Assembly: GCA_026692885.1 (NCBI GenBank)
Contig: JAPLNJ010000972.1
Span: 1 to 21,420 of the forward strand
Length of the DNA stretch: 21,420 nt
Direction: 5' to 3'
From: Planctomycetota bacterium
GTDB lineage: Bacteria > Planctomycetota > Planctomycetia > Pirellulales > Pirellulaceae
This document shows, piece by piece, positions 2-21,420 of this stretch (the stretch's first letter is position 1; the number at the start of each line of letters is the position of its first letter). The notes under the pieces are model-generated. The model worked only from the letters and a program-made list of their open reading frames with translations. It was not told the DNA's origin and made no database searches. Both the position numbers and the translations under genes were made by a program.

Positions 2-2764
2 AGTATCTCCTACCCAGACAGTACAAAACAAACGTTTGCCTTCGACCCGCTCGGCAATCTGGCCGCGGCTGTCATGCAAAACGGCGATGCCATCGGCCAA
101 CTCATTGGCATTGGCCTGCCAGGCGGACAAAGCATCAGCTACGCGTACAACTCCACAGGCGACCGGACCCAGGTCAACGTCAACGGGACGGCGACGACCT
201 ACACGAGCAATGCCGTCAACGAAATCACCCAGGTCGGCCCAGCGGCCTACTCTTATGACGCCAACGGCAACCTGCACACCATCACCGATAACAGCGGCAC
301 GACGATTTACAACTACAACGACCTGAACCAACTGTTGGCAATCACGGCGCCCGATGGGGCTGCCACCAGTTTCCAGTACAGCCCGCTCGGCTTCATGGTG
401 GGGATCACTTCGGGCAACGGCGCAGACCAAACCAACTACCTGGTCGATCCGGCGGGTCTGGCGAACGTGGTGTCATCCTATACAGGCGACGGGGCGCTGA
501 TTGCCCATTACAATTTCGGGCTGGGCGTGCTGGCTAACCAAACGGGACCGAGCGGTATTGGATATTACGACTTCGACCAGATGGGTAATACGGTCGGCAT
601 CTCGGGTTCTGGCGGTGTCTATGTTAACCACTACAGCTATCTGCCATTCGGAGAAACAACGATCGCCTCGGCAACGTTGCCCAATCCGTTCACCTTCTCC
701 GGTGAAACCGGCGTAATACAGAGCGGCACAAACTTGTTCAATATGCGGGCAAGGCAATACTCCGTAACGACCGGACAGTTCCTGAGCAACGATCCCATCA
801 GCCTCGGCGGCGGAGACAGCAACCTTCGTCGCTATGCCAACAACGCTCCAACGAACTTTGTCGATCCGTCCGGCAATGACTCTGCGAAGGTCTATTTCTG
901 GAATGCCAATGGCGGCACGGGGCACACTGCCATTGAGGTAAACGGCAATTACCTGGAAATCAGGCCCCAGGGCGATACGAACTCCATCGCCGGCGCCCTC
1001 AGCTCCCTATTCATGAACACTGTTGGAGCGGTGGTCGGATTGACGGTGCGCGGAGACTATTCGAAGTCCGCCGCCAACAACGGAGCGACCTCCAGCTATA
1101 CATTTGGCGTATCGTCGCAGCAGGCAGAGCAGATGAGTGCGGCGATCAACCACAGGAAAGAGGTCATTGACACGGCCAATCAGGTCGGCTTTCCGACTTA
1201 TAATCTCTACACGAAGAGCTGCGCGTCGGACACTGCCGATGTCTTGAATGCAGGAGGCATCAATATTCCGCTTGGGATTCAGTTAAGTCCACACATATTT
1301 GAATGGTACATAAAGAACCTTACATCTCACGATCCCAACGCCCTCATCGGCCCCGCCGGCTACGGCACGCAGAACTTCATCCAGGACAGCGGCGTCTGGC
1401 CCTACACCGTCGAGTTCGAAAACACTGGCAGCATCGCCGCCCAAGAGGTGATCGTCACCGAACAGCTCGACTCCAACCTGGACTGGTCGACGTTCGAGTT
1501 TGGTTCGTTCGGCTTCGGTCCGGTCAAGGTCGCCGTGCCCGCCGGGCTGACCCAATACCAGACCACCGTCAGTTACCAGAACTCCGACGGCTCGACCTTG
1601 AACGTGCAAGCCTCGCTCGACTTCAATGTCCAGACCGGCCTGTTGACCGCCACCTGCGTTTCGCTCGATCCGTCCAGCGGCCAGGCGCCGACGGGAGTCT
1701 TCGACGGTTTTCTCCCGCCCGACAACAGCAGCGGCATCGGTGAGGGCTACGTCCAGTACACGCTGCAGCCCAAGGCCGGTCTGACCACGGGAACCACGAT
1801 CAATCCGCAAGCATCGGTCGTCTTCGATACCAATGCACCGCTGGCCACGCCGCAGTTCCCCAATACGATCGACGCCAGTCCGCCGACCAGCAGCGTCGCC
1901 GCCCTGCCCGCCACGGAGACCTCGCCGAGCTTCCTTGTGACTTGGTCGGGCGCCGACGACTCCGGCGGATCGGGGATCGCCACGTACACCATCTGCGTCT
2001 CCGATAACGGCGGCGAGTTCCAGCCGTGGCTGACCGGCACTGCGAACACTTCGGCCACTTTTCCAGGTCAGAATGGCCACAACTACGCGTTTTCCAGCCT
2101 GGCGACCGACAACGTCGGCCACCGCCAAAGCAGCCCGTCCGCGTCTGCGACCACCCAGGTGGTCGCGAATCCTTGGCATAACTTCGCCAACCCGTGCGAC
2201 GTCGATGGCCAGAATGGAGTCACGCCGTTGGACGTGTTGATCGTGATCAACTACATCAACTCGCATCCGGTCAGTACCTCGCTGCCTGCCGCGCCCACGT
2301 CCCCGCCTCCGTACTACGATGTGGCCGACGGCACGGGCGATCAGCAGGTCACGCCCCTGGATGTCTTGACGGTCATCATCTACATCAACTCCCATCCGTC
2401 GGGATCAGCGGAAGGTGAGGCGGCCGAGTCTGTGGGCAGGCCGGCTCTTGCGACTGGGTGGCCGGCGCCGCGGGCCGACGAGGGAGTGGTCCCAGCCGGA
2501 TACGGCACCCGGTTGACGGCCCGGACGTCCGCAGTGTCCACTCCATCCCCGTACTCACCTGAGGAGGCATCGACGGTCCCACGCCCGAAACTCGCCTTGG
2601 CGACCATTCCGGGTATCTCCGGGCGTTTGGACGCAATCAGGGTCAGACCATCGAATCGCTTGGCGTCAGACCAAGACATCGGGGCGATCGATGCTTGGTC
2701 GGCCTCCCCGGATGATATCGGGTCGGACCTCGCCGCCGACGTCGCGGCAGCATGGCGAGCCTGA
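2..2764 (+). CDS. RHS/YD-repeat protein with C-terminal dockerin (5' truncated)
   Basis: The reading frame is open from base 2, so the gene begins left of the window; 920 residues are visible. Residues 1-250 are YD-type repeats (YSYDANGNL, YNYNDLNQL). They end in the RHS core signature, which runs from RARQY near residue 250 to FVDPSGN near 290. After it comes a variable region with GHTAIEV (His308) and YTKSCASD (Cys407). That His-then-Cys order fits a circularly permuted papain-like (NlpC/P60- or LRAT-like) fold, but this is inference. Residues 440-725 look like beta-sandwich modules (FENTGSIAAQEV, a late VVFDTNAP, then an Ig/FN3-like unit). Residues 733-800 hold two dockerin repeats with the VTPLDVL-NYINSHP pattern. 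The last residues, AADVAAAWRA, match planctomycete dockerin-protein tails. It is probably exported and bound at the cell surface. RHS proteins often carry polymorphic toxins, but here the post-core part continues into a dockerin, so a structural or adhesive role is as likely. Confidence 0.85.
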   Translation, partial: SISYPDSTKQTFAFDPLGNLAAAVMQNGDAIGQLIGIGLPGGQSISYAYNSTGDRTQVNVNGTATTYTSNAVNEITQVGPAAYSYDANGNLHTITDNSGTTIYNYNDLNQLLAITAPDGAATSFQYSPLGFMVGITSGNGADQTNYLVDPAGLANVVSSYTGDGALIAHYNFGLGVLANQTGPSGIGYYDFDQMGNTVGISGSGGVYVNHYSYLPFGETTIASATLPNPFTFSGETGVIQSGTNLFNMRARQYSVTTGQFLSNDPISLGGGDSNLRRYANNAPTNFVDPSGNDSAKVYFWNANGGTGHTAIEVNGNYLEIRPQGDTNSIAGALSSLFMNTVGAVVGLTVRGDYSKSAANNGATSSYTFGVSSQQAEQMSAAINHRKEVIDTANQVGFPTYNLYTKSCASDTADVLNAGGINIPLGIQLSPHIFEWYIKNLTSHDPNALIGPAGYGTQNFIQDSGVWPYTVEFENTGSIAAQEVIVTEQLDSNLDWSTFEFGSFGFGPVKVAVPAGLTQYQTTVSYQNSDGSTLNVQASLDFNVQTGLLTATCVSLDPSSGQAPTGVFDGFLPPDNSSGIGEGYVQYTLQPKAGLTTGTTINPQASVVFDTNAPLATPQFPNTIDASPPTSSVAALPATETSPSFLVTWSGADDSGGSGIATYTICVSDNGGEFQPWLTGTANTSATFPGQNGHNYAFSSLATDNVGHRQSSPSASATTQVVANPWHNFANPCDVDGQNGVTPLDVLIVINYINSHPVSTSLPAAPTSPPPYYDVADGTGDQQVTPLDVLTVIIYINSHPSGSAEGEAAESVGRPALATGWPAPRADEGVVPAGYGTRLTARTSAVSTPSPYSPEEASTVPRPKLALATIPGISGRLDAIRVRPSNRLASDQDIGAIDAWSASPDDIGSDLAADVAAAWRA

Positions 2765-6858: not shown

Positions 6859-8319
6859 CTACCGCAAACGCCGCAGGATATCCCAGTAGGCGCCGCGCGC
6901 CCCGGCGGCAATCGCCTCGACCAACGCGCGGTTGTCATTGTAGTTGTGGTCGCCCGAGTCGGCCGTGGCGACGGGCACCTCGTCTTGTGGCGGAAAGAAC
7001 CGCGGGTCGCCCGCGATTAAGTCGCGGACGAACCGGGCCGGATGGTCGCCGAGGGCCGCCGATACATAGAACGTCGGCTGCAACAGATCGACCGGCCCCG
7101 CGTAATGCCGCCGGATACTGGGGTTCGTCTCCCACGGTTCTTCGGCCGACACGCATTCGGCGATCGGCGTCCCGGGGTAGATGCGCAAGCCGAGCGCCGC
7201 GCCGGCGCAGTCCGGATCGACTTGTTTGAAGTCCGCGATGGTTCGCGCCACCGTTTCCGGCGTTTCCCCCGGACCGCCCAGCAGCATGTCCAGCATGACC
7301 GCGATCCGGCGCTGGCGGCATAGCCGTACGACCCGGGCTAGGTCTTCCTTGTCGTGTGACTGGCCGTACGTGCGGAGCATGGCGGGATGCGACGAGTCGC
7401 TGGTGAAGTTGATGCCGACGCAACCCGCTCGCTGCATGCGATCGGCCAAGTCTTCGGGGAAGGGCAGGACCGCCAGATACGCATACCAGCGCACTACCTC
7501 CCCCAGGTGCCGGCGAATCAACTCGTCACAAACGGCCGCCGCGTGCTCCGGCGGCAGATTGAACTCGGCGTCGCACAGGTGCAGGACGTTGATCCCCTGC
7601 GAGCGTAAGGCTTGCACCTCGTCGGCCACTTCGACCGGCGACCGCAGCCGATACGAGCGGCCCTTGGCCAACGGGTCGACACAATACGTGCATTGACGCC
7701 GACAGCCGCGTTTGGTCTCCAGGCCGACTTGTCCGCCCCGGGCAAAATAGAACCGGTTGTCGACGCAGTCCCGGCCCGTCGGCACCCTCAGGTCCTGCGG
7801 CCAAGCAGGCGGATTTGCGTGCCAGGCTCCAGCCTGCCGATAGACCAGGCCCGGCACGCGGTCCCAGTGCCGGCTTCCGCGCAGTTCGCGCAGCAGGGCG
7901 ACCACGGCCTGTTCCCCGTCGCCGTGGATACCGAAGTCGGCGCCAACAGATTGGACGATCTGTTTCGGGAAGACCGAATAGCCGACGCCGCCGAGCACGA
8001 TGGGAGCGTCCGTCCGCCGCCGGACCGCCGCCACGTCATGGGCCAGCGTAGGCAGGAACGACTGGCCGCTGGGCCAGAAACAATCATCCACGTTGCGAAA
8101 CGTCAGGCCGACCAACTCCGGCTGACGCTGAGCCAAGTGCTCGTCCAGCGCCGCGTCGGGGTGGTCGTGGGCGCGGCACAGGTCGACCAACTGGACGTCG
8201 CAGCCCGCATCCCGCGCAGCCCCCGCGACATAGTCCAACCCGATCGGCGCGATCGGCGGCTGCATCCGGTTGGTGTTGATCAGGGTCAGTTTGCCGGTCT
8301 CGTTCCGTCTGTGTTCCAT
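6859..8319 (-). CDS. B12-binding-domain radical SAM protein
   Basis: A 486-residue protein with two domains. Residues 10-150 form a Rossmann-like cobalamin-binding type domain (KLTLINTN, APIGLDYVAGAARDAG, VLGGVGYSVFP, GEQAVVALLREL). It lacks the DxHxxG motif of base-off cobalamin binders. The radical SAM core begins near 200 with KRGCRRQCTYC, a canonical CX3CX2C [4Fe-4S] cluster motif, followed by LHLCDAEFN and a GGPGET strand. The family uses S-adenosylmethionine to make a 5'-deoxyadenosyl radical; some members methylate unactivated carbons. The substrate cannot be told from sequence. The start ATG at 8319 is poorly supported: no clear Shine-Dalgarno sequence precedes it, and the first codons fall in an 11-nt repeat (8308-8340). 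The next Met, residue 19, would remove the first beta strand, so 8319 remains the best choice. No partner peptide or operon is visible. Confidence 0.85.
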   Translation of the reverse strand: MEHRRNETGKLTLINTNRMQPPIAPIGLDYVAGAARDAGCDVQLVDLCRAHDHPDAALDEHLAQRQPELVGLTFRNVDDCFWPSGQSFLPTLAHDVAAVRRRTDAPIVLGGVGYSVFPKQIVQSVGADFGIHGDGEQAVVALLRELRGSRHWDRVPGLVYRQAGAWHANPPAWPQDLRVPTGRDCVDNRFYFARGGQVGLETKRGCRRQCTYCVDPLAKGRSYRLRSPVEVADEVQALRSQGINVLHLCDAEFNLPPEHAAAVCDELIRRHLGEVVRWYAYLAVLPFPEDLADRMQRAGCVGINFTSDSSHPAMLRTYGQSHDKEDLARVVRLCRQRRIAVMLDMLLGGPGETPETVARTIADFKQVDPDCAGAALGLRIYPGTPIAECVSAEEPWETNPSIRRHYAGPVDLLQPTFYVSAALGDHPARFVRDLIAGDPRFFPPQDEVPVATADSGDHNYNDNRALVEAIAAGARGAYWDILRRLR

Positions 8320-9102: not shown

Positions 9103-9144
9103 TGCCCCCAGTTGGACTTGAACCAACAACCCTCTGATTAAGAG
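9103..9144 (-). other. 3' half of tRNA-Lys(CTT): attachment site junction
   Basis: Read on the minus strand, the segment gives an anticodon loop CTCTTAA (anticodon CTT), the 3' anticodon stem TCAGA, a variable loop, a T arm GTTGG-TTCAAGT-CCAAC, the acceptor strand TGGGGGC and discriminator A, with no encoded CCA. Upstream of the loop the sequence is TTCCA, which cannot pair with TCAGA, and no D arm or 5' acceptor (expected GCCCCCA) follows. The tRNA is therefore split exactly at the anticodon loop, the usual crossover for tyrosine recombinases. The integrase gene begins 86 bp away. The element lies to the right and should rebuild an intact tRNA-Lys at its other end. Confidence 0.85.
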
Positions 9145-9199
9145 TGGAATGCACTTGACGCTATTTCCCTGAGTATTTCTACTGTTAGTGGGCTTATGG

Positions 9200-9229: not shown

Positions 9230-10306
9230 ATGGCTCGACAACCGAAACCTTGGTACTGGGAAGATCGGGGGGAGTGGTATGTCACCATCAATCGGGTTCG
9301 GCATCGCCTTGGGGAGGACAAGAAGGCCGCCACAGCGAAGTTTCACGAGCTGATGTCGGGGAAGCGGACGCAGGTCCAATCGGATGCCGTTTCGGCGGTG
9401 CTCGATCAGTTCCTGTCGTGGACCGAAGCCCATCGAAGTCCCAAGACCTACCGTGGGTACAAGGACTTCTGTCAGTCCTTCCATTCCACATTTCCCCGTC
9501 TCCGCATTTCGGAACTGAAGCCGTTCCACGTTCAGCAGTGGGCAGAGGGAAAGACCACTTGGAACGCGACCACACAACGGGGAGCCATCACGGCGCTCGT
9601 ACGAGGCATGAACTGGGCGATGAAGATGGGGCATATCGACCGGAACCCCTTGGCAGGCATCGAGAAGCCGGAGGCGAGCAAACGGGAAACGTTGATTTCG
9701 GAGGGCGAATTCAACGGGATGCTGGAACACGTGAATCAGCAGTTTCGCGACCTGCTTGTCGTCTCGTGGGAGACAGGATGCAGGCCGCAGGAGACGAAAG
9801 CTGTTGAGGCCCGGCATGTCCAGTTCGACCTGCATCGGTGGGTTCTTCCGCCTTTGGAATCGAAAGGGAAAAAGAAGCCTCGCATCGTCTACATGACACC
9901 GCGGGCTGAAGAAGTAGTGAAGCGACTGGTTGAGCAGTACCCGGAGGGGAAATTGTTTCGAAACGTGCGAGGCCGTCCTTGGACCGCCTCGTGCGTCAAG
10001 ATGACCTTCGAGCGATTGGAGGGAAAGCTCGGCACACGATACTGTCAGTACAACTTTCGGCACTCGTTCGGCCACCGGATGCTGACCGAGCGGAAGCTCG
10101 ATAGCTTGGTGGTGGCCGAATTGATGGGGCACTCTTCACCGATGATGCTCGCCACGACCTACAGCCATCTGAACGCGAATCCGGAGCACTTGCTCAAGGC
10201 CGTAGGTGCTTCAGAACAGGAAAAGGAGCCGGACGTATCCGTGCCTCCGGCTCGACGCGGCAAGTCGCAAGGTAAGCATCGACGTCAGACTCGGCGCAGC
10301 GGATAG
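9230..10306 (+). CDS. int: Tyrosine recombinase (integrase)
   Basis: A 358-residue site-specific recombinase that would integrate and excise the element at tRNA-Lys. I chose ATG 9230 because GGAG lies just upstream; an earlier in-frame start at 9188 lacks this. The N-terminus has a small AP2-like arm-binding region (WEDRGEWYVTINRVRHRLG). The SAM-like core-binding domain covers about 55-145 (LDQFLSWTEAHRSPKTYRGY), and the catalytic domain the rest. Catalytic residues visible are Arg in GCRPQE, Lys in SKGKKKPR, Arg in QYNFRHSFGHR (Tyr stands in place of the usual His of HxxR, as in many relatives), His in LMGHSS and the nucleophile Tyr311 in TTYSHL. A basic tail of 47 residues follows. It is the only plus-strand gene of the element and its 3' end overlaps the excisionase gene by 113 bp. 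Confidence 0.93.
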   Translation: MARQPKPWYWEDRGEWYVTINRVRHRLGEDKKAATAKFHELMSGKRTQVQSDAVSAVLDQFLSWTEAHRSPKTYRGYKDFCQSFHSTFPRLRISELKPFHVQQWAEGKTTWNATTQRGAITALVRGMNWAMKMGHIDRNPLAGIEKPEASKRETLISEGEFNGMLEHVNQQFRDLLVVSWETGCRPQETKAVEARHVQFDLHRWVLPPLESKGKKKPRIVYMTPRAEEVVKRLVEQYPEGKLFRNVRGRPWTASCVKMTFERLEGKLGTRYCQYNFRHSFGHRMLTERKLDSLVVAELMGHSSPMMLATTYSHLNANPEHLLKAVGASEQEKEPDVSVPPARRGKSQGKHRRQTRRSG

Positions 10307-10418
10307 CACCCCGGCCGAGACCGATGCGGTAACACGCCAACCGCCCTTGCGCTACCAGTTGGTAGACCAGGGCGGTCGACACACCGAGCCGTTCTGCCAC
10401 TTGCGACACCGTCAACAT
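10194..10418 (-). CDS. Excisionase-family (MerR-type HTH) DNA-binding protein
   Basis: A 74-residue protein almost wholly made of a winged-helix excisionase-type HTH: LTVSQVAERLGVSTALVYQL forms the first helices, then CYRIGLGRGAIR the wing and ESDVDAYLATC the last helix. Such proteins bend DNA at attachment sites and steer integrases toward excision; others act as small regulators. The start ATG at 10418 is preceded by GGAGAAGG at good spacing. The gene lies two bases after the stop of the Cys-rich ORF (10420-10593), so the pair is probably cotranscribed. Its last 37 codons are antisense to the end of the integrase gene. Given that position, a recombination directionality role is likely but inferred. 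Confidence 0.8.
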   Translation of the reverse strand: MLTVSQVAERLGVSTALVYQLVAQGRLACYRIGLGRGAIRCAESDVDAYLATCRVEPEARIRPAPFPVLKHLRP

Positions 10419-10856: not shown

Positions 10857-11819
10857 TCACGTAGCTGCTCGCAGTTGGCGGTGGTCGGTTTGACCGACGA
10901 GCACGGTGCGTTCTGCGTTGGTGACAGTCACGTCGAAGTAGGGCCGGCCAGCAGATTCGAACTTGCTGACGCCGGAAACAAGGGACCAAATCTGCTCTTT
11001 TGACAGACCAAGCCGCAGCAAGTCACAGACGATGGCGAAGTCCCGCCGGCTTCGATCCCGACACGGGCGGTCGAGCCGGCTGATGAGCGCTGCCGCCTCG
11101 GCTTGGACGGCCCCGGGCTCGACCGCTGGCTGTGGACACGGTCCGGCCACCTGCGGCGGCGTTCCGTTTTCGACTGCCGCCATCCATGGGGCGAAAGCGT
11201 CCAATGGATAGCGCAGTTCCGGATCGCAGGCACAGAGCGTGCAGGGCAACGGCCGTCGGCCACTGCGGGCATCCTTGTAGTTGAGAGTCCCCGGCGGACG
11301 CAGTACCCGCGACAAATTCTGGACGTGGTCCCCACCAAAGCTGCGGTAGAAGTTCGAGAGCATGGCCCCCAACCGCGATCGCTCTGCGTGGGAGGTCAGG
11401 TCTTGCTGCAACAGCCAGTAACCGTGGATTCCCGAACCGCTGCTGATGACAATCGAGGGGCGGGGGATTCCGGCCTCGCTCCAACGTCTGCGCACCTCCT
11501 CGGCAGTGACTCGGTCGATGTCGCACCAGACGCAACGAACCGTCTGGATGCTCTGATCGTCGGCGTCGCCCACCTTGGCCCGCGGGCAAACCCCGAAGTA
11601 GATGTTGGCCCGCTCGCGTCTCGCGAATGTGGTGAGATCGCCATGCCTGGCGATGACTTCGTCGGGCCGCAGCCATTCCGCGGATCGCACAACGCGGCTA
11701 CGTTTCTTGCTCTGCGATAGCCAGCTCTCAATGAACCGTAGTTCGATCAATTCCTCCCGTAGAAACAGGGCCGAGAGGAACTGTTCAAGCTGCTGACGGG
11801 CTGTCTGCGGCTTGGTCAT
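10857..11819 (-). CDS. RepB-type DNA primase (AEP superfamily)
   Basis: A 320-residue protein resembling the archaeo-eukaryotic primases of plasmids and integrated elements, which synthesise primers for element replication. Visible motifs are NIYFGVCPR (strand before the active site), VRCVWCDIDR with the paired acidic metal ligands DxD, SSGSGIHGYWLL with the motif II His, and LSRVLRPPGTLNYK near 190-205. The C-terminal 75 residues (DFAIVCDLLRLGLSKEQIWSL) look like a helical PriCT-type cap. GGAGG precedes ATG 11819. The gene lies 68 bp downstream of the ribonucleotide reductase gene on the same strand, separated by a hairpin. A helicase domain is absent, so it would rely on another helicase. 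Confidence 0.75.
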   Translation of the reverse strand: MTKPQTARQQLEQFLSALFLREELIELRFIESWLSQSKKRSRVVRSAEWLRPDEVIARHGDLTTFARRERANIYFGVCPRAKVGDADDQSIQTVRCVWCDIDRVTAEEVRRRWSEAGIPRPSIVISSGSGIHGYWLLQQDLTSHAERSRLGAMLSNFYRSFGGDHVQNLSRVLRPPGTLNYKDARSGRRPLPCTLCACDPELRYPLDAFAPWMAAVENGTPPQVAGPCPQPAVEPGAVQAEAAALISRLDRPCRDRSRRDFAIVCDLLRLGLSKEQIWSLVSGVSKFESAGRPYFDVTVTNAERTVLVGQTDHRQLRAAT

Positions 11820-11854
11820 GGGATTCCTCCGAAATAAAGGTGCTTAGGAAACCG

Positions 11855-11881
11855 GCCTGGCTGCTCGTTGAGCCGCCAGGC
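11855..11881. terminator. Hairpin between ribonucleotide reductase and primase genes
   Basis: GCCTGGC, a 13-nt loop and GCCAGGC form a perfect 7-bp stem just after the reductase stop codon. On the minus strand it is followed by CGGTTTCC, so it is at most a weak terminator or an mRNA end stabiliser. Confidence 0.4.
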
Positions 11882-11887
11882 GGAGAA

Positions 11888-14326
11888 TCAACACATCGAA
11901 TAGCCACAAGCGTGGCACTTCAGGCAGCCTTCCTCAAAGGCGAGCGTTCCAGACGAATCGCACTCGGGACACTTGATCTTGAAGATGGCTTCCTGTTGGC
12001 GGTCCTGCGAAGCGACGGCGGGTCGCTCCGGTGGTCGAAGTGATTTCACGCGACCGGAAAGTAGCGCCGGCAGGCCCTCGCGTTCCTTCGCGGTCAGGTA
12101 CTTCCGAAGGGCTTGCGCGAGTCCATCGCCCAAGGACTTGATCCGTCCATCCTTGGACGGCACGGACAAGCTGGACCCGATTCCGTCAAGTTGGTCGATG
12201 ACGGTCCTGATGTCGCCGTCGCAACGGAGGAGCAGGGAAATCAGCCGACAGATCGCTTCCAAGTCGGAGTTGGCAAGGTCGCCACCTTTTCCCAGTTGGG
12301 CGAAGACTTCGCGCTCGCGTCCGGTCTCCGGATCGACGCTGATATGGAGGTGCATGTTTCCGAATGGCGTCGGCTGACGGAGCCGCACGGAAGGGATCAC
12401 CTCGGGGAGCTTCAAGGGTCGAACTGGACTCGCCTCCGGCGGTGTCTCGCGCGTCCCTGCCGCCCCGCTGGAGAGTGCCATCGGCTGGAGCGGTCGGGCG
12501 CCGTCGCGGTAGACTGTGATGCCCTTGCACTTCAGCTTGTAGGCAAGAATGTACGCCTTCTCGACGTCCTGGACTGAGGCGTCCGCGGGAAGGTTGATGG
12601 TCTTGCTGACCGCGGCATCCGTATGACGCTGCCAGGCGGCCTGCATGCGAACGTGCCATTCGGGGCTGACGTCGCGGGCGGTACGAAACACGGACTTGAG
12701 CTGCTGGGGCAGATCGTCGAGATCCTGGATCGACCCGCGTGCAGCCGCGTCTTGGAGAATCCGGTCCGCCTTCTGTTCGTCCTTGAACTGCTGACGCAAG
12801 ACGCGTTGGAAGATCGGGTTCACCTCGACCAACTTCTTGCCACCGAGGACGTGCCTCGTGAAGGCCAGCGAGAACAGCGGCTCAATGCCGGACGAGCAGC
12901 CGGCGATGATCGAGATCGTCCCCGTTGGGGCGATGGTCGTGACCTGGGCGTTTCTCATGGGCTTCCCGCCATGCTGCGTGTCCCACACGCTACCTTTCCA
13001 GCTGGGGAACGATCCGCGAGACTCAGCCAGTTGCTGGCTGGCGGCCCAGCCGGTTTCCCTGATGAAGGAACCCAAACGTTCCGCGAGGGTTATCGCCTCG
13101 TCCGAGTCGTAGGGGATTCCAAGCTCAAAGAGGAGATCCGCAAACCCCATCACGCCCAGGCCAATCTTCCTCGTGGCGAGAGAAGCGTCGTGAATCTCCT
13201 CGGTCGGATACTTGTTCACCTCCACGACGTTGTCGAGAAAGCGAACGGCAAGAACGACCGTCTGCCTGAGACGTTCCCAATCGACTCGGTCTGCAGGGGA
13301 ACCGCCTGAACGAGGGTCGCATAAGGCGGCCAGGTTGATCGAACCGAGGTTGCAGGCCTCATACGGCAAGAGTGGTTGTTCACCACAGGGATTCGTCGCC
13401 TGAATGCTTCCAAGCTGGGGCGTTGGGTTGTGTCGGTTGACCTCGTCGATGAAGACAAGACCGGGATCACCCAGCCCCCAGGCGCACTGCACGATCCGAC
13501 CCCAAACCTCACGAACGGTGAAGTGGCGGCCGTTTATGGTTGCTGGCGGCGTATGGTAATCCGCCGTGCCGGTGTCCTTCGACATTGCGCCTGACTGACC
13601 GGTGTGCGGGTTGACCACGGCGTGGACCTTGTGCGGGTCCCCGTTCAGAGCAGCCATGAAGTCGTCGGTCATGGCCACGGACAGGTTGTAGTTGGTGAGT
13701 TGCGTGGGATCGGACTTGATGCCGATGAATGCCAGAATGTCCGGGTGGTCCACTCGCATGATGCCCATGTTGGCCCCACGGCGAAATGCTCCCTGCTGGA
13801 TGGCATCCGTCACACCGGACAGCATCCGCAAGAAGGACAGCGGACCGTCGGTCGTCCCACCGGACGAGCGAACAATCGAGCCTTTCGGGCGTAACCCGGA
13901 CAAGTCCACGCCTGTACCGCCGCCGGCACGTTGTACGAGAGCCATTTGCCGTGCGGCTTCCATGATCTCCGGGATTGAATCCCCGAGCGGGAGCACGAAA
14001 CAGGCCGAAAGCATGCCCAGGCGTCGGCCTGCGTTCATCAGCGTGGGCGAATTCGGAAGAAATGTTCTACTTGCCATGAGCTGGTAGAACTCCTGCTCGA
14101 TCCGCTCGCACTGCTCGGCAGTAGCCCCCCAGCTTTCCTCGGGAGCGATGATGGCCCTGGCGACGCGGCGAAACAGGTCGGTCGGCGTCTCCGCGATTCG
14201 TCCTTCGTGATCCCGCATGAGATAACGGTCCTCCAGGACAGTGATGGCGTTGGAGCTCAAGTCTGGCACCAACTGGGCAGGCAATTCCTGCGATGGAGAC
14301 AGTGTCGTAGAGAGCGTCGTAGACAT
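11888..14326 (-). CDS. nrdJ: Adenosylcobalamin-dependent (class II) ribonucleotide reductase
   Basis: An 812-residue class II enzyme that reduces ribonucleotides to deoxyribonucleotides using a cobalamin-derived radical, with no oxygen or NrdB partner needed. SPTLMNAG and LSACFVLP (Cys109) give the first redox Cys. NPCGEQ gives Asn312, the thiyl Cys314 and Glu316, equivalent to E. coli NrdA N437/C439/E441. EACNLGSINL gives the partner Cys325. GCSSGIEPLFSLAFTR forms the later barrel loop. After residue 640 a TSCPD-like module follows (TPFGNMHLHIS, EVFAQLGKGG). The C-terminus is a Cys-rich ribbon with CPEC at 786-789, CHAC at 804-807 and Cys812 at the very end, the tail that re-reduces the active site. 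No ATP-cone is evident at the N-terminus. AGGAGG precedes ATG 14326. All key residues are present. It is unusual as cargo of an integrated element. Confidence 0.93.
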   Translation of the reverse strand: MSTTLSTTLSPSQELPAQLVPDLSSNAITVLEDRYLMRDHEGRIAETPTDLFRRVARAIIAPEESWGATAEQCERIEQEFYQLMASRTFLPNSPTLMNAGRRLGMLSACFVLPLGDSIPEIMEAARQMALVQRAGGGTGVDLSGLRPKGSIVRSSGGTTDGPLSFLRMLSGVTDAIQQGAFRRGANMGIMRVDHPDILAFIGIKSDPTQLTNYNLSVAMTDDFMAALNGDPHKVHAVVNPHTGQSGAMSKDTGTADYHTPPATINGRHFTVREVWGRIVQCAWGLGDPGLVFIDEVNRHNPTPQLGSIQATNPCGEQPLLPYEACNLGSINLAALCDPRSGGSPADRVDWERLRQTVVLAVRFLDNVVEVNKYPTEEIHDASLATRKIGLGVMGFADLLFELGIPYDSDEAITLAERLGSFIRETGWAASQQLAESRGSFPSWKGSVWDTQHGGKPMRNAQVTTIAPTGTISIIAGCSSGIEPLFSLAFTRHVLGGKKLVEVNPIFQRVLRQQFKDEQKADRILQDAAARGSIQDLDDLPQQLKSVFRTARDVSPEWHVRMQAAWQRHTDAAVSKTINLPADASVQDVEKAYILAYKLKCKGITVYRDGARPLQPMALSSGAAGTRETPPEASPVRPLKLPEVIPSVRLRQPTPFGNMHLHISVDPETGREREVFAQLGKGGDLANSDLEAICRLISLLLRCDGDIRTVIDQLDGIGSSLSVPSKDGRIKSLGDGLAQALRKYLTAKEREGLPALLSGRVKSLRPPERPAVASQDRQQEAIFKIKCPECDSSGTLAFEEGCLKCHACGYSMC

Positions 14327-14351
14327 AGGATTCCTCCTGCTAATAACCTGG

Positions 14352-14375
14352 AAAAAAACCGATGCACGCCACCGG
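14352..14375 (-). terminator. Terminator-like hairpin upstream of nrdJ (possible attenuator)
   Basis: On the minus strand CCGGTG, loop GCGTG, CATCGG form a 6-bp stem with one G-U pair, extendable by G-U and A-U pairs and followed by seven T. The T tract ends 25 bases before the nrdJ start. There is almost no room for a promoter between it and the ribosome site, so if it terminates, it must be regulated by read-through. A competing stem GGCT-cga-AGCC overlaps its 5' side. I found no cobalamin riboswitch signature next to it. Confidence 0.5.
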
Positions 14376-14710
14376 CTTCGAGCCAGGACAGAACGTCGCG
14401 GCTGAAAGTCGGCGGTTGAAACGTCTACCCGTGCAATCGTGGAAAAGAGCGTGGGATGAGAAGAAACGCCGATAACCGACGTCTCGCCCGGACCCTAGCA
14501 CGTTTCGGAATGAACTGCAAAACTTGTCGGAGAGAATCAGATAATCCCTTGAAAGAATTCGGTTCTTTGAGACGCGCGCAGAGTGTGGTGATGGGGCCGG
14601 GACGGAATGGGCGTTGGCTGCTCGCCAGGACGTGGCTGAGCGGCTTTGGGTCTGAGTGTGCACCTGGTCATCGTCGCGTCGCGCACGCCCAGAATGGAAA
14701 CGATGGGTAG
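14376..14710. other. Leader region of nrdJ, no gene seen
   Basis: The 335 bases between the attenuator-like hairpin and the next gene hold no convincing coding frame. A weak minus-strand promoter is possible: TTGCAG (14515-14520) and TAGGGT (14492-14497) with 17-bp spacing, though the second box matches consensus at only three positions. AAAGAA and TTCTTT form a small inverted repeat at 14552-14568. Confidence 0.3.
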
Positions 14711-14947: not shown

Positions 14948-15259
14948 TCATGTCTCCGTTCGGGTGATGCCGTCAAGCTTGGCGGCGAGATTTGCGAGCG
15001 CACGGCGCTGGCGGGTCGGGATACAGCCGTCATCGGCGAGAGTCGCCGCCAAGACCTGGCAGAGCTTTACGAGATCCTGCACGTCGGTGGGCCGGAGGAG
15101 TTGCTCAACGTGGCCATCGCGGCCGTTCATGCGATAGACGTTGAACCGATAGGACCACCCCGCTCGTTCATCGCCGGCCTTCCAGACCGCAGAAACGAGC
15201 TGGCCAGCGCCCAGCATGGCGTAAGGCTTCGACGTAGTCGGTGGCATATTGCGTGGCAT
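14948..15259 (-). CDS. Small element-borne protein, distant relative of family A
   Basis: A 103-residue hypothetical protein. Its first 60 residues follow the same plan as the family A proteins (KPYAMLGAGQLVSAVWK, then WSYRFNVYRM, then PTDVQDLVKL as the helix), but identity is low. The tail LADDGCIPTRQRRALANL is basic. The start at 15259 has no strong ribosome site; Met5 is an alternative. The gene is followed after 3 bp by the 77-residue gene. A nucleic-acid-binding role is possible only by analogy. Confidence 0.6.
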   Translation of the reverse strand: MPRNMPPTTSKPYAMLGAGQLVSAVWKAGDERAGWSYRFNVYRMNGRDGHVEQLLRPTDVQDLVKLCQVLAATLADDGCIPTRQRRALANLAAKLDGITRTET

Positions 15260-15792: not shown

Positions 15793-16077
15793 TCAGTACT
15801 CTTCCGGCAGCAGGATGGTCGTGACGGAACGATCGTGTTCAGTGATGATCCAGAACTTCGTTCCGCGCGGAGTTGCATAGCTGGATAGGAGACGAAACCC
15901 GTGTTCAAGCGAGAATTCGTTCTCCTTCCGGTCATCCTCGTCCACATCACCCCAGTCGCCCGCCACGTGGCGAGCAAGGCCTTCCAAGACTTCGTCTTGC
16001 GACAACTCGGACTGCGCTCCGGAAGTGATCACGATTCTTCCTGTCCAGAACTTCCCTTGGGCGATTATCAGCGTCAT
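15793..16077 (-). CDS. Conserved mobile-element accessory protein (94 residues)
   Basis: The start at 16077 is supported by GGAGG at ideal spacing; longer frames start inside the upstream hairpin. The sequence runs FWTGRIVITSGAQ, ARHVAGDWGDVDEDDRKENE, EHGFRLLSSY, then KFWIITEHDRSVTTILLPEE. I recognise this pattern as a small hypothetical family often annotated 'plasmid-related protein' on plasmids and integrated elements across phyla. Its biochemical role is not known to me. Its presence supports the mobile nature of the region. Confidence 0.75.
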   Translation of the reverse strand: MTLIIAQGKFWTGRIVITSGAQSELSQDEVLEGLARHVAGDWGDVDEDDRKENEFSLEHGFRLLSSYATPRGTKFWIITEHDRSVTTILLPEEY

Positions 16078-16097
16078 GGCTTGATCCTCCATGAAGG

Positions 16098-16122
16098 GCC
16101 GACCGGATTGCATCCGGTCGGC
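16098..16122. terminator. Perfect 11-bp intergenic hairpin
   Basis: GCCGACCGGAT, loop TGC and ATCCGGTCGGC pair perfectly within the 59-bp gap between the 85- and 94-residue genes. On the minus strand it is followed by CCTTC and then the ribosome site of the next gene. Confidence 0.6.
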
Positions 16123-16136
16123 AGGTTATTCATCCG

Positions 16137-16394
16137 TTACTCGACCGCCTCGGCCGGGTCAGCTGGCACTTCGTGCTCCCAGATCCAGGCGTACGCCATG
16201 TCGACGACCTTGGCGACAATAGGGAGGTCATCGCGACGAAACGTCGCGGAGTCCTTCCATTGATCGCCATCCTTGTAGAGACGCGTGACCGTGACATTGA
16301 ACCAAACATCCCGATGTTCGGTCTGATTGGCCCAAATCGCGGCTCGGATGCGTCCCAGGCGGATTTCGTGGACCGGTTTGTGTTTTTGTGCCAT
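16137..16394 (-). CDS. Small element-borne protein, family A (85 residues)
   Basis: The start at 16394 is chosen because AGGAG lies six bases upstream; the longer frame to 16463 has no such site. Core sequence: KPVHEIRLGRIRAAIW, DVWFNVTVTRLYKDGDQWK, RRDDLPIVAKVVDMAYAWIW, acidic tail. It is a paralogue of the 77-residue protein at 14711-14944. Alternating beta strands then one amphipathic helix suggest a compact nucleic-acid- or protein-binding domain. It heads the run of small genes and is probably transcribed from the 365-bp gap upstream. Confidence 0.7.
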   Translation of the reverse strand: MAQKHKPVHEIRLGRIRAAIWANQTEHRDVWFNVTVTRLYKDGDQWKDSATFRRDDLPIVAKVVDMAYAWIWEHEVPADPAEAVE

Positions 16395-16759
16395 AAGCAC
16401 TCCTGTTGAATTGGGTCCGGCGGCTGTTTCTGTTGCCCGTCGAACCTCGTTGTTACACGGCATCGGTGTTCAGCACCGCTGCCACTTAAGTGTGGGCTGT
16501 CCGGAGACAGTCCGAAAACCAGACCGAAAACCTCTGGGGCAAACCTACCGCCGGGCACATCTGGTACGCGTGCGCGAGCGATAAACATTCAGACTGGATT
16601 TCTCCAGTGACTCGGTGAGCTGCGTTCCCCTGAACGTCAGTTCCACCTACGGTTTGCTAAGGTCTGTTACCCGTTGTTTTTCCGTGCTCCAGGGCCAGGA
16701 GCGTTGAGACCCATGGAAAGGGAGTCAAAAAATACGAGTGGTCGAAGCACCTCCTTCTT
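16395..16759. other. Intergenic region, likely promoter of the small-gene run
   Basis: No convincing gene is seen on either strand in 365 bp. Short inverted repeats occur (CGGTG/CACCG near 16465-16480, CTGTC/GACAG near 16498-16512, TGGCT/AGCCA at 16763-16774 just inside the upstream gene). I could not identify a promoter with confidence. Confidence 0.3.
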
Positions 16760-17473
16760 TCAGTGGCTGGAGCCAATCAGAGGCAGCAGCTCCGGCAGCG
16801 CCACCACCTGCAGCAGAACGCTGCGAGTGTCTCGCACCTGAGCCAATGCCTCGTAGATCCGTCGTGCCTTTTGGCGAAAAACGGTTAAGACCGTGATCTC
16901 GAAGCGTCCCGCCTCGATGAGCTGCCTGAACCCGGGCTGGCGGACATGGTCGTCGATGTCTGTGCGGAGCGATTGGAGAACCCGGTCCCAACGGCCGCGG
17001 CGGGCGGCGTCAACCCGAGCGAGACCGAGACGGCCTGATCCTGCGGGGTCAAAGTAGTAGCCGCTGGGCAAGCCTGGCCGCTGAAGACTTGGAAAATTCC
17101 GTGTGAGGTCATCCGCCGTGAGTCGATGACGGGGCTTGTCGGATAGGCAGCAGAACCGCAACAGGGCCAAGGCCCGCAGCTTGGCCGGTTCCGACAGGGG
17201 GCCGATTCGCTGCTCGGCCAATCCGCAACGCTCCGCGCCGACGGCATCCAAGTACCAATACTTGGCGCCGTGGTACAGCGGGGCGGAGCCGACCAGCGAT
17301 TGCCGCTGGCAATCCCGCAGCACGTCCTTGATCTGTCGCGGTCCCCTTGCCGAGAACACGGGCAAGCGTTCGAGCGCGGCGAAGACAGTCAGCCGATATC
17401 GGGCTACGTGATTCAAGACGGCCTCGGTCAACTCGGCGGGGACAAACTCTGTTTGGGGTATATCGTGCGGCAT
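16760..17473 (-). CDS. Replic_Relax-like winged-helix protein, second copy
   Basis: A 237-residue protein starting at 17473, four bases after the stop of the preceding gene, with GGTGAC as ribosome site; the upstream in-frame Met lies inside that gene. The N-terminal 90 residues (VLNHVARYRLTVFAALERLP, VLRDCQRQSLVGSAPL, YWYLDAVGAE) read like a winged helix. The C-terminal half (SGYYFDPAGSG, LGLARVDAARRGRWDR, FRQLIEAGRFEITVLTV) has the strand-acid-strand order of nuclease-like domains found in Replic_Relax proteins. It seems related in layout to its neighbour at 17478-18113. It may help process or relax DNA at the transfer origin. Family assignment is tentative. Confidence 0.5.
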   Translation of the reverse strand: MPHDIPQTEFVPAELTEAVLNHVARYRLTVFAALERLPVFSARGPRQIKDVLRDCQRQSLVGSAPLYHGAKYWYLDAVGAERCGLAEQRIGPLSEPAKLRALALLRFCCLSDKPRHRLTADDLTRNFPSLQRPGLPSGYYFDPAGSGRLGLARVDAARRGRWDRVLQSLRTDIDDHVRQPGFRQLIEAGRFEITVLTVFRQKARRIYEALAQVRDTRSVLLQVVALPELLPLIGSSH

Positions 17474-17477
17474 AAAG

Positions 17478-18113
17478 TCACCACAGTTCGTAAGGGAGGT
17501 CGAGCTCGACGCAATGCTCGTGAAAGCGGTCGATCTGGGACGCACTATTGCGGCCAGCGGATTCGATCACCCGCAACACTCGCCCGTTCGCATCGCAGAG
17601 AAACGCATCCGGGTCCTTGATCCGGTATCCGGCCTTGGGCAAGGCGTGCTCGCCGATCCACAACTTCGCCAGGCGTGGAAGAGCGACGCGGTAGTGAACG
17701 TAGACCGCTGCCAACCGCAGATCGTGGTCCCGGTGCTCCGGCGGAGGGAGTCGGCGTGCCGTGCTGCCGAGCAGGCAGGCGGCCATGGGCGAAGCCACGC
17801 AGACACTCGTGGGCCGGGCCGGCTGCGACCAGCGGGCCCGCGACTCGCAGGCGATACGTTCCGCATCCGGGTCCTCCTGGCCAGGCTCCCATGTGAACAG
17901 GGGCCGGCGCACAGGAAGCAGCGGATGCGCGTTGATGATGTGACATTCGATCCAACCAGCCTTGGCCAACAGTTCCAACCGGCGCCTCGCCGTGCCTTGG
18001 TTTCGAGCTTCCGGCCACCAGACTTTCGCGGCGAGGTGCAGGGGGAACAGGCGTACGCGTCCAGTCAGCGTCTCCAACAGGTCGTGATCCCGTGCCGTGA
18101 GGGTGAGGGTCAT
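17478..18113 (-). CDS. Replic_Relax-like DNA relaxation/transfer protein
   Basis: A 211-residue protein. Residues 1-70 form a winged helix (TARDHDLLETLTGRVRLFP, ARRRLELLAKAGWIE), as in the replication-relaxation family of plasmids and ICEs. The C-terminal part contains YRIKDPDAFLCDANGRVLRV, IESAGRN and FHEHCVELDLPYELW. This follows the PDa..., E.. pattern expected for the nuclease-like domain of that family. Its ATG overlaps the coupling-protein stop by four bases (ATGA), a sign of translational coupling. With the gene at 16760-17473 it forms a three-gene transfer operon. The role in nicking or loading DNA for transfer is inferred from neighbourhood. Confidence 0.6.
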   Translation of the reverse strand: MTLTLTARDHDLLETLTGRVRLFPLHLAAKVWWPEARNQGTARRRLELLAKAGWIECHIINAHPLLPVRRPLFTWEPGQEDPDAERIACESRARWSQPARPTSVCVASPMAACLLGSTARRLPPPEHRDHDLRLAAVYVHYRVALPRLAKLWIGEHALPKAGYRIKDPDAFLCDANGRVLRVIESAGRNSASQIDRFHEHCVELDLPYELW

Positions 18114-20536
18114 GTCCGCTTCCTCCGTCGGCGAGGCTGCTCGATCGGCTTTGCGGGTGGATCGTTCGGCGGCGACGGTTCAAGCTTCGGCATCGACTGT
18201 CCAAACTGTTGGAAGAGGGCATCAATCGCTCCGGTGTCGGCTGGGGACAGAGGTGCTCTGTCCTCGCCGATGACTTCCTCGGTCCACTGCGGCCCTGACG
18301 GAGTCGACTGGGAACCCGCGCCCGTGTCTTGGCCAACCGCTTGCCGCGGGACAAAAGTGCCTGGGCCGGTGGGCCAGGGCAGCGATTTGCGCCGCTGGTA
18401 CTCTTCTGCGGAGATGTGGTAGTTCGATTCAATGATGACCGGCAGGCCGCCATACTGAGCGTAGCCGGCGCCGCGACTGATGCGGAGGAAGCTGCGGAAG
18501 GGGTGATCGCTGGTGAGCAGAACGTCATTGAGCGTGAAGCGTGGTACCACTTGCTCCGTCTCGGAGTACGAAACCGGCCCGAGGCCAGTGATACTACTCT
18601 TTGCCGAGCAGCCCAATACTCGATCGACCGTCAAACCGCTGCCGTTGATGACCCGCTGTTGATCGTCGCTCGATGAGACGGAGAACCATTGGCGTAACCG
18701 GCAGTTGGCCTCGATGGCCGGGATCAGGTTCGTCGACGATTTCTTCAGATCCTGCATGCTCTGGTTCGCGAGGATCACACCGACGCCCATGCTGCGCGCC
18801 AATTGCATCATGTATTCGAGATTGCTGGCCACCATCCGTTGGAATTCGTCGATGACCAGGAACACCGGGTGCCGCCGCTCGGTTTGCGTGGCCGCGGCCA
18901 GCAACATGTAGTTCACCAGCCGGGCCATCTCCGGTGCGCCGCTCGGCGACAACGTGGCCGACAGATGGAAATAGAGCAGCTGCGGCTGTTGAAAGACCTG
19001 CGTCAGGTCGATGGCCTGTTCGACAACGTCTGGTGCATGCCCGGTGGAGGCGGTGACGTTGAGGGGTTCACAGGCCGCCAGCCGCTTGATGACCTCATGG
19101 ACATGGACACCCGCCTTGCGGATTTCGGGGTGCAGTTCGCGTTTCTTCGCCGTGGTGATCACGTTCCCGATGCAGTCAGCCAGTTCGGTGAACGTGGCCA
19201 CGTGCGGAAACGTCTTGAGGGCGTGATACAGAATCGCCGCGTTGGCGGAACTGTAATACCCCTGGCCATAGTCGGTGCCGTACGTCAGCCCGTTCGCACC
19301 GCAAAGAATGTCCGTTCGCGTGAGCAGGTCGAATTTTTTCCAGAACGGCTGAGTCATCGGGTTGAACGCGAACGTCGCTCGGTCGGCCTGGTTGGAGAAG
19401 GACTTGAGCCTCAGCGACACCCCACGTTCCCGGCGAACGGCCTCGGCCGAGGCTTGAAGGGTCGCTAGTAATTCGAGCGAATCGGCTTTCAGATCCAGTA
19501 CAATGACGCTGCAATCGCCGCTCATTACGAGCTGTTCAATGAGGGGGCAGAGGAACAGGGCGGTCTTTCCCGATCCGCTGTCACCCAGTCCGTGGGCATG
19601 CTCCCGAAATACGATCCGGGGAACCAGCACGGGGCTGCCATCCTCGACGACTCGTCCTAAGTAGATGCTGTTACGTTCCGTGAGGTCGGGTGAACGCCGC
19701 AGATCGGCAAGCATTGTTTCGACGTTATTGGCGGAGTTGGCCTGCTCTCGCTGCGCCGCGGCCTCCAGGAGTACCGGGATCGTCAACGAGATGGCTATCG
19801 CCCACGGCAGCGTGACCGGGAGCAAGATGAGGGCGATGAACGCGGGGCCCCAGATGACGCCGCCGTAACGTGAATGTTCGAAGCTGCTTGCACCCCGCGC
19901 GTCCAATTGCTGAGCGACCGATTGGTGCTCGGCCAGGGTCCATTGGTGTAGGCGGGGGAGCGGGGAATCCGCCCAGCGGACCAACATCACAGCAGCAAGC
20001 ACGGCGACGAGAGCGGCGAGGCTAACACGGTGACTGGCCGGACCGACAGGACTCCGCAACAAGCCGGGAAGCGGCCGGGGGTCAAAGGTGAACCACGAAA
20101 CGAGACTGTCGAAAACGACTCTCCATCGGGAGGAACGAAGACCTTCCGGACGCCGCACCGCGGCCGCCGCTAACGGCAGCGTGAGCACTGCGAACTTGAG
20201 AATCAAAGCCCCTGACCAGAGTACGGCTCCGGTCAGGAGGGCGGCGATGCCAGCCATGACGAAGAGTTGCCGTTGCCAGTCCAGGCGAAGTGGATCTGCG
20301 TTCGAACGAGGAAGAGGTGTTCCCGTACAGACGACGCTCCAGTGGCGCCCGAACGAGTAGACCAACACTCCGACCATGATCGACGCCAAGACGACTTGCA
20401 GACTCCACGGGATGTCGGGATTCAGGCAGAGGAAAGCCACCCCGGCGAGGAACAGCGGTTGCAATAGCCAACGGACTTGACCAGTCGCGATCCCGATGCC
20501 GAGTCCGATGGCGACGACCGGGCCTGCAAAAAGCAA
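18110..20536 (-). CDS. VirD4/TraG-type conjugative coupling ATPase
   Basis: An 808-residue inner-membrane ATPase that would link DNA substrate to a type IV secretion channel. The N-terminal 250 residues hold several membrane segments (VVAIGLGIGIATG, VVLASIMVGVLVY, FIALILLPVTLPWAI). The ATPase domain has Walker A GDSGSGKT (Lys324), VIVLDLK, and Walker B FLVIDEFQRM (Asp563-Glu564). The TraM-recognition-like region follows (ARSMGVGVILANQSMQDL). The C-terminal 120 residues are Pro-rich and basic. The start shown is a TTG at 20536 just after an in-frame TAA (20540-20542). Upstream of that stop, the same frame runs on as a matching hydrophobic leader, so the true gene may once have begun at 20671. 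Orientation and 4-bp overlap place it first in the operon with the two Replic_Relax-like genes. Confidence 0.85.
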   Translation of the reverse strand: MLFAGPVVAIGLGIGIATGQVRWLLQPLFLAGVAFLCLNPDIPWSLQVVLASIMVGVLVYSFGRHWSVVCTGTPLPRSNADPLRLDWQRQLFVMAGIAALLTGAVLWSGALILKFAVLTLPLAAAAVRRPEGLRSSRWRVVFDSLVSWFTFDPRPLPGLLRSPVGPASHRVSLAALVAVLAAVMLVRWADSPLPRLHQWTLAEHQSVAQQLDARGASSFEHSRYGGVIWGPAFIALILLPVTLPWAIAISLTIPVLLEAAAQREQANSANNVETMLADLRRSPDLTERNSIYLGRVVEDGSPVLVPRIVFREHAHGLGDSGSGKTALFLCPLIEQLVMSGDCSVIVLDLKADSLELLATLQASAEAVRRERGVSLRLKSFSNQADRATFAFNPMTQPFWKKFDLLTRTDILCGANGLTYGTDYGQGYYSSANAAILYHALKTFPHVATFTELADCIGNVITTAKKRELHPEIRKAGVHVHEVIKRLAACEPLNVTASTGHAPDVVEQAIDLTQVFQQPQLLYFHLSATLSPSGAPEMARLVNYMLLAAATQTERRHPVFLVIDEFQRMVASNLEYMMQLARSMGVGVILANQSMQDLKKSSTNLIPAIEANCRLRQWFSVSSSDDQQRVINGSGLTVDRVLGCSAKSSITGLGPVSYSETEQVVPRFTLNDVLLTSDHPFRSFLRISRGAGYAQYGGLPVIIESNYHISAEEYQRRKSLPWPTGPGTFVPRQAVGQDTGAGSQSTPSGPQWTEEVIGEDRAPLSPADTGAIDALFQQFGQSMPKLEPSPPNDPPAKPIEQPRRRRKRT

Positions 20537-20539
20537 GTC

Positions 20540-20671
20540 TTAGGGTTCGAGCCAGACTAGTCCCGGCGGCCAACACAGTAGGAACGTGACCAGCACCGCG
20601 GCCGCGCTGTATGAAAGACTGACTGCCAGCAGGCGAAGCTGGCTACCGAGCGGCACGCGCGGCGGCAGCAT
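20540..20671 (-). CDS. 43-residue membrane peptide, probable cut-off N-terminus of the coupling protein
   Basis: ATG 20671 opens MLPPRVPLGSQLRLL, a transmembrane stretch AAAVLVTFLLCWPPGLVW, then LEP and a TAA. Two codons later, in the same frame, the 808-residue coupling protein begins (LLFAGPVVAIGLG). The text reads straight through the stop as one membrane domain, which suggests that the TAA was formed by a point change in a longer gene of about 853 residues. Alternatively this is a separate short membrane peptide coupled to the ATPase. The ribosome site (GGAAA) is weak. Confidence 0.5.
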   Translation of the reverse strand: MLPPRVPLGSQLRLLAVSLSYSAAAVLVTFLLCWPPGLVWLEP

Positions 20672-20697
20672 TTCTGTTTCCGGCCGCGTCGCCGGTA

Positions 20698-21006
20698 GCC
20701 GGTCAAGTTGCAGGGGATTTCGAACCGATTCTTCAGGTCGTGGCTACGGCACATCCGGTGGCCCCGGAGGAGTACGTCGATTTTCGCTCTGCCGCGGCCG
20801 GGCGAGACAGGGCGGCCTTGCTTTGTCGCCGCTGGACGGGGGTGAGCTTAACGGAATTGTCGAGGCGTTTTGGACTGCGGCACCCGGACAGATCAGCCAA
20901 CCTGGTGCGCCGGGCAAAGCAGCGGGAAGCGGACTCCGCCGCCGATCGTTGCCAAATCCAGCAGGCCGAGTTGCTAGGGACCTCCAAAACCGAAAAACAA
21001 GTCTGA
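20698..21006 (+). pseudogene. C-terminal fragment of a REP-associated tyrosine transposase
   Basis: The frame AGDFEPILQVVATAHPV, DRAALLCRRWTGVSLTELSR, RRFGLRHPDRSANLVRRA, ending TSKTEKQV and stop 21006, matches the DnaA-C-like HTH tail of long REP-associated (Y1/HUH) transposases as I know them in planctomycetes. The nuclease half is absent upstream, where the coupling-protein leader lies on the other strand. The CAAGTCTGACCCC at the stop resembles the repeats that flank such genes. It is a non-functional remnant. Confidence 0.55.
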
Positions 21007-21020
21007 CCCCTGCGAGGTCC

Positions 21021-21420
21021 CAGGCTCGACAGCCGCCGACGGCGTTCGGCCAACCGTTCCCCGTCGGCCGTCAGCATCTGCAAGTCGGCCGCGGTCGGCT
21101 CCGCCGGCTGACCGGCCGCAGCCCTGCGTCTCGCGAAGAGAAACCACCAGCGGCGCGTGACATCCTCGTCAGCGCAATCCTGGACCACGTCGGGCCGATT
21201 GCGGAGCACGACATGCAGGTGTTACTCATAACGGAGAAAAACAGGACTTCGATGCCAAACTGCCCGGCTAGGAACTCTAAACGCTGTAGAACCCAGGCTT
21301 TGCGGTGACCGAAGCTCCGGCCCATGATCGGATCCTGGCCGCAGAGGAAGGCGCGCCGGACCGCGCGCTGGACGCAGGGATAAATGCCGACTTCCGGTTC
21401 CTCAATCAGGTCGCGTCGAG
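21021..21420 (-). pseudogene. Frameshifted N-terminal fragment of a REP-associated tyrosine transposase
   Basis: The minus strand reads RRDLIEEPEVGIYPCVQRAV, FLCGQDPIMGRSFGHRKAWV, EFLAGQFGIEVLFFSVMSN. One base is then missing near 21220, and in the next frame the product continues HVVLRNRPDVVQD, TRRWWFLFARRR and GERLAERRRRLSSL. In intact relatives the join reads MSNHLHVVLR, the HUH nuclease motif, so the indel destroys the catalytic HxH. Similarity stops at about 21021, where the opposite-strand fragment ends. The 5' end runs off the window by a few codons. It is inactive as written. Confidence 0.75.

Follow-up and report, generated by a model that had tools for sequence, protein, structure and literature searches.

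A class II ribonucleotide reductase gene recurs beside a PrimPol-like primase gene on integrative elements of planctomycetes

A stretch of 21,420 nt from a planctomycete contig (JAPLNJ010000972.1, assembly GCA_026692885.1), called the window here and numbered as a whole, carries the gene for a vitamin B12-dependent class II ribonucleotide reductase (RNR), NrdJ, on an integrated element. The gene is followed directly by that of a primase of the archaeo-eukaryotic primase (AEP) type, and the two genes are found together again on other contigs. We consider it fairly probable that the nrdJ-primase pair of the window is one instance of a cassette found repeatedly on planctomycete elements whose integration sites are the 3' ends of tRNA or tmRNA genes, and that this cassette supplies deoxynucleotides for the element's own synthesis. 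The two genes and the region in front of them are as follows.

11888..14326, minus strand: class II B12-dependent ribonucleotide reductase NrdJ, 812 aa, from domain profiles and conserved residues
10857..11819, minus strand: AEP primase (PrimPol-like), 320 aa, from profile, alignment and fold comparison
14327..14520, minus strand: conserved nrdJ leader, from an alignment of three sequences only

A reading of the window from its letters alone (the sequence-only reading) had described a complete B12-type reductase with its catalytic cysteines 68 bp upstream of a co-directional AEP primase, and both the coordinates and the conserved residues bear this out. Residues C109, N312, C314, E316, and C325 of NrdJ are identical in all 112 aligned rows, query included, and the six cysteines of the C-terminal tail are kept in 111 of the 112. 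We take these residues to be catalytic from what is generally known of the family. The assignment is consistent with the way the B12 enzyme of T. maritima aligns to the protein. The protein contains the lgN, barrel, and TSCPD domains and passes the NrdJ_Z profile above its cut-off. It is predicted to be an intact class II reductase that performs adenosylcobalamin-dependent ribonucleotide reduction.

The nearest folds to the primase are the S-2L PrimPol and RepB', which places it within the AEP fold. Residues D100, D102, and H132 are invariant in the 38 rows of the final alignment, from which the frameshifted rows P0237 and P0242 were left out, and their counterparts in the S-2L chain are E, D, and H. 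The motif I acidic pair and the motif II histidine are those of the PrimPol-PV1 group. The histidine fits the all3500-like family, and a place there rather than in the RepB' family is possible. The tyrosine gate of the S-2L PrimPol could not be aligned to the window protein. Its predicted identity is that of an AEP PrimPol capable of primer synthesis.

Recurrence of the pair was apparent from several searches. Among the best 80 NrdJ loci of a genome scan, L001 (a Candidatus Anammoximicrobium metagenome-assembled genome, MAG) and L002 (a Rhodopirellula MAG) reached 75% and 74% identity, and the next locus 61%. A tblastn search for the primase over 108 loci found it only in the same two, at 78% and 76% identity, where it comes immediately after nrdJ and the small upstream frames are conserved. 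Between the window and these two loci, dN/dS is about 0.12 for nrdJ and 0.2-0.3 for the primase gene, so both genes are under purifying selection. In a profile search of 65 loci, NrdJ was matched in 62 and the primase in six (L001, L002, L152, L153, L154, and L155); among loci with an NrdJ match, only L001, L002, and L152 also matched the primase profile. Locus L152 (genome G377) holds nrdJ, primase, and integrase together. L155 (G001) has an integrase and, where the contig stops, the terminal part of a primase, and no NrdJ was seen up to that edge; an integrase adjoins nrdJ or the primase in L152, L155, and L162. No NrdJ was found in the roughly 19 kb each of L153 and L154, whose primases are 42-43% and 34-35% identical.

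The pairing was also followed in a protein database without genomic context, in which two proteins with the same size of longest contig were taken as probably lying on one contig. Of the listed NrdJ clusters, 57 have an identity of at least 64%, and at least 21 of these are linked by this proxy to a primase relative; none of the 63 clusters below 64% is. When the sizes were jittered by 1-50 bases, the mean number of links was 0.36 and the maximum 3 (2000 trials). The figure of 21 is a lower bound, because the 120 listed NrdJ clusters were compared with the best 120 of 147 primase matches.

A maximum-likelihood tree was made of 113 rows. One of its clades (49 rows, SH-aLRT 100) takes in the query together with the 20 linked full-length NrdJs; no linked row occurs in the sister group, which numbers 61. 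The tree came from a quick search without bootstrap and has a very long outgroup branch; it took rows of 700-950 aa, and the linked P0077 is among those left out. At 70% identity or more, NrdJ occurs in at least 3 of the 396 genomes of the order to which the genome of L001 belongs. A fourth carrier is G002 (3 of the 119 genomes of its family have NrdJ at 70% or more, two of them already counted). Three further matches in the order, at 48-51%, end near query residue 624-648 and were excluded from the element type. Across the phylum, at least 35 of 392 genomes pass E<=1e-250, and G001 alone reaches 70% or more. The order and phylum surveys scored two candidates per genome, and their counts are therefore lower bounds.

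A different, host-type reductase of about 1000 aa is present in at least 310 of the 396 genomes of the order, and both types occur side by side in three of the four carriers (G001, G002, and G224). Element-type NrdJ is thus sporadic and, in relatives, not a housekeeping gene, since the other reductase is common in the order and present in most carriers. It is also distinct from the reductase type that is usual in the order. The outcome that the sequence-only reading had named as refuting, a sole reductase of vertically inherited type, is therefore not borne out by the relatives. Were the window NrdJ instead the only reductase of its host, it would be a captured housekeeping gene. Two observations lean that way: only a partial element-type copy was detected in G377, and in all six sister-type genomes (given without completeness values) NrdJ is the sole PF02867 gene. 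The relatives, with another reductase in most carriers and in much of the order, speak against this explanation, and we regard it as scarcely credible.

The host-type enzyme passes the B12-dependent family NF005122 (1401 bits, cut-off 859) and carries PF08471, the class II N-terminal domain. By these profiles, the element-type and host-type reductases are both class II enzymes, of separate subfamilies. Independence of oxygen, suggested earlier as an advantage of the element copy, is therefore no special gain, because the host-type enzyme is itself B12-dependent. Escape from host reductase control, in the form of dATP control by an ATP-cone, is likewise not indicated, because a Pfam search (E<=1) matched no ATP-cone in either enzyme. 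With both enzymes in class II, the gain from the element copy is more likely one of dose, timing, or regulation than of a new oxygen range.

The evidence for integration, and for the kind of element, comes from the following features.

9103..9144, minus strand: 3' half of tRNA-Lys(CUU), putative attachment site, read by eye
9230..10306, plus strand: tyrosine integrase (PF00589, 1.1e-12; phrog_1 integrase, 2.2e-45)
18110..20536, minus strand: TraG/TraD-type coupling-protein-like gene (PF12696, 24.8 bits, cut-off 22)

The open reading frame of the integrase opens at 9188, and the ATG of its MARQ start lies at 9230. The integrase adjoins the tRNA-Lys 3' half, a site identified by eye, which agrees with the earlier placement of the pair on an integrated element. 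No complete tRNA was found in the window. Since the left end of the tRNA-Lys piece is its 3' end, the element is placed to the right of the piece; the far end of the element lies beyond the window. Base composition gives no contrast for the element (G+C 0.608 vs 0.619). Beside the integrase of L162, positions 1-1094 contain a weak match to a tmRNA 3' end (16.1 bits, gathering score 47), which suggests that related elements may use other attachment sites.

The sequence-only reading had further called the element conjugative or mobilisable. That it is integrated holds; as to transfer, the coupling-protein-like gene is the sole match of that type, and no relaxase or type IV secretion system was matched among the window proteins scanned, the element being partial in the window. 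An in-frame stop lies near the 5' end of the coupling-protein-like gene (18110-20740, minus strand), and P0243 (879 aa, 98% identical) reads through it; the stopped copy is either a broken gene or a sequencing error. Of the 21 linked contigs, just one, of 15,591 bases, could also be tied to a coupling-protein relative among those listed, and the coupling-protein link is thin for this reason. The longest contig of P0102 (56%) has the same size, 5916, as that of a coupling-protein relative, which may be chance.

Alternatively, the element could be a prophage or phage satellite, and nrdJ and the primase an ordinary phage replication module. RNRs are frequent in phages (PMC3653736); a PHROG terminase is a further match of the coupling-protein-like gene (4.3e-8), a small frame has weak similarity to a tail chaperone family (0.0035), and the right part of the element lies outside the window. 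However, no capsid, portal, or clear tail gene was found among the proteins tested. The best viral-contig match of NrdJ is 48%, with all phage records below 60%; the primase reaches at most 35% among the best 80 of 431 viral loci, with one weak phage record. We consider a prophage or phage satellite unlikely. A known plasmid was rejected as a candidate: the window gave no megablast match and the primase no match, and NrdJ stays below 60% in all matched plasmid records.

The approximately 200 bp in front of nrdJ are conserved among the window, L001, and L002 (83% mean column identity). This leader contains a promoter-like hexamer pair and, ahead of the start codon, a terminator-like hairpin with a T run (about 14352-14375). 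The 5' arm of the hairpin can pair with an upstream stretch, a possible antiterminator arm at about 14406-14415 (25 of 30 cells); the pairing was picked post hoc, and 3 of 6050 placements score as well. Single leader folds compared with shuffles gave z values of -1.34, 0.01, and -2.03, clearly better in one of the three at most. Covariation, with three sequences and few pair changes, was equalled by 38 of 500 shuffles. A covariance model run on 31 sources found above noise only its own three source sequences, and the exact 21-base leader core is absent from viral contigs. No Rfam family was detected in the window at gathering scores; a known riboswitch was dismissed as an identity of the leader, the only match being a chance-level one to an unrelated snoRNA. 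The region looks like a site of transcription attenuation, and because the fold, covariance, and shuffle controls are weak, it is offered as a lead and not as a result. GGAGG stretches resembling a Shine-Dalgarno sequence precede both nrdJ and the primase gene.

In the cassette reading that we prefer, a tyrosine integrase would insert the element, and nrdJ and the primase gene would probably be co-transcribed from the promoter before the conserved leader. NrdJ would reduce ribonucleotides, host kinases would phosphorylate the products, and the deoxynucleotides would feed the primer and strand synthesis begun by the AEP primase during element replication. Occasions for this might include the phase that follows excision, or a cell whose deoxynucleoside triphosphate (dNTP) pools are low. 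Local dNTP supply, already proposed as a plausible role from the sequence, is retained as the best-supported interpretation. A narrower version is doubtful but possible: a dedicated precursor-and-priming module in which NrdJ feeds the PrimPol and an undescribed attenuator-type leader RNA gates expression.

Several observations weigh against the cassette reading. In locus L162 (G224), the interval between the integrase and nrdJ contains no primase. No linkage to a primase was seen for 36 of the 57 close NrdJ clusters among the matches listed, possibly as a result of missing data. The synonymous divergence from L001 and L002 is greater for nrdJ (1.5-1.6) than for the primase gene (0.45-0.6), so that the pair may not always have moved together; this hints that parts of the cassette can be exchanged. 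The spacer between the two genes (11820-11887, minus strand) contains an inverted repeat, seen by eye, that could split the transcripts. The L001 and L002 spacers have similar G+C-rich repeats at the same place.

The retention of nrdJ in L162 with no primase alongside would also suit a reductase carried as host-beneficial cargo, an extra and differently regulated enzyme that settled beside replication genes. A leader that suggests separate expression control of nrdJ is consistent with such cargo, as is the wide occurrence of plasmid and prophage RNRs (PMC3019208). Nevertheless, with a host-type enzyme that is also class II, such cargo would bring no new cofactor or oxygen range, and repeated pairing with one primase family is unexpected of loose cargo; we hold this explanation to be rather unlikely. 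The reductase had earlier been termed unusual cargo, which understates the case, because nrdJ and the primase gene recur as a pair. It is very unlikely, in our view, that NrdJ counters a dNTP-depleting host defence during entry or replication of the element; a reductase beside a primase on an element fits this idea, but no link to defence was seen, and none was searched for.

The remaining features of the window are listed below. The primase end and the integrase are 551 bases apart. The DNA left of the tRNA-Lys piece is regarded as that of the host; its genes are of the RHS/dockerin, patatin-like, and B12-radical-SAM kinds.

74-2764, plus strand: RHS-repeat protein with DUF7619 and a dockerin domain, left flank
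6859-8319, minus strand: B12-binding radical SAM protein, left flank; all NCBIfam matches are below cut-off, the best being a tryptophan methyltransferase model
10301..10418, minus strand, end approximate: small helix-turn-helix frame, excisionase-like by eye, from the translation
14948..15259, minus strand: small conserved frame upstream of nrdJ, 48% and 67% identity in L001 and L002, no Pfam family
15793..16113, minus strand: small conserved frame, 67% and 71% identity in L001 and L002, no Pfam family
16130..16588, minus strand: small frame, kept in L001 and partly in L002, no Pfam family
16760..17545, minus strand: frame whose last part recurs at the end of contig L001, no family match
21071-21420, minus strand: frame at the right edge, presumably related to a REP/IS200-type transposase

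Supply of dNTPs for plasmids and integrative elements is usually regarded as a service of the host, to which phages are the exception known so far. The repeated occurrence of a reductase next to a primase, in elements that have diverged from one another, suggests that this limit on dNTPs is met and solved by some integrative elements too. The factors that restrict how elements replicate and become established in slow-growing bacteria are thereby opened to testing. The NrdJ clade can also serve as a marker for finding such elements in fragmentary metagenomes.

Bacterial PrimPol-PV1 primases are known from integrated elements, often in tRNA and also in tmRNA genes (PMC5862659). These elements, with all3500-like or RepB' primases, resemble the present one in combining an AEP primase with an integrase at a tRNA gene, and the all3500-like members share the motif II histidine of the window primase. 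The terms 'ribonucleotide reductase' and 'planctomycet' do not occur in the main text of that paper, and the reductase beside the primase is the feature added here. ICEAcaSM.3 of Acidithiobacillus caldus (PMC3826726), an element of the integrative and conjugative element (ICE) type, also carries an RNR gene, nrdB, but this encodes a lone class Ia small subunit, whereas the present element has a complete single-gene class II enzyme and a primase. The authors of that work stated in 2013 that, as far as they could find, phages were the only mobile elements for which RNRs had been reported; RNRs of plasmids and prophages had been tabulated in 2010 (PMC3019208). A Brevibacterium ICE (PMC6579920) is a different case, being inserted into an RNR gene rather than carrying it. 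Full-text literature searches, covering sources in part, found no description of an RNR-primase pair on non-phage integrating elements. Plasmids, prophages, and phages (PMC3019208, PMC3653736) likewise provide examples of mobile DNA with its own RNR, but the planctomycete NrdJ clade is at most 48% identical to viral contigs and below 60% to phage and plasmid records. The sister-clade planctomycete enzymes (e.g., L003 and G604) are of the same type and 61-67% identical; they differ in being the sole PF02867 gene of their genomes and in having no primase in the flanks examined. Each of the two proteins belongs to a known kind; the novelty lies in the way they recur together on integrative elements of planctomycetes and, perhaps, in the leader in front of them.

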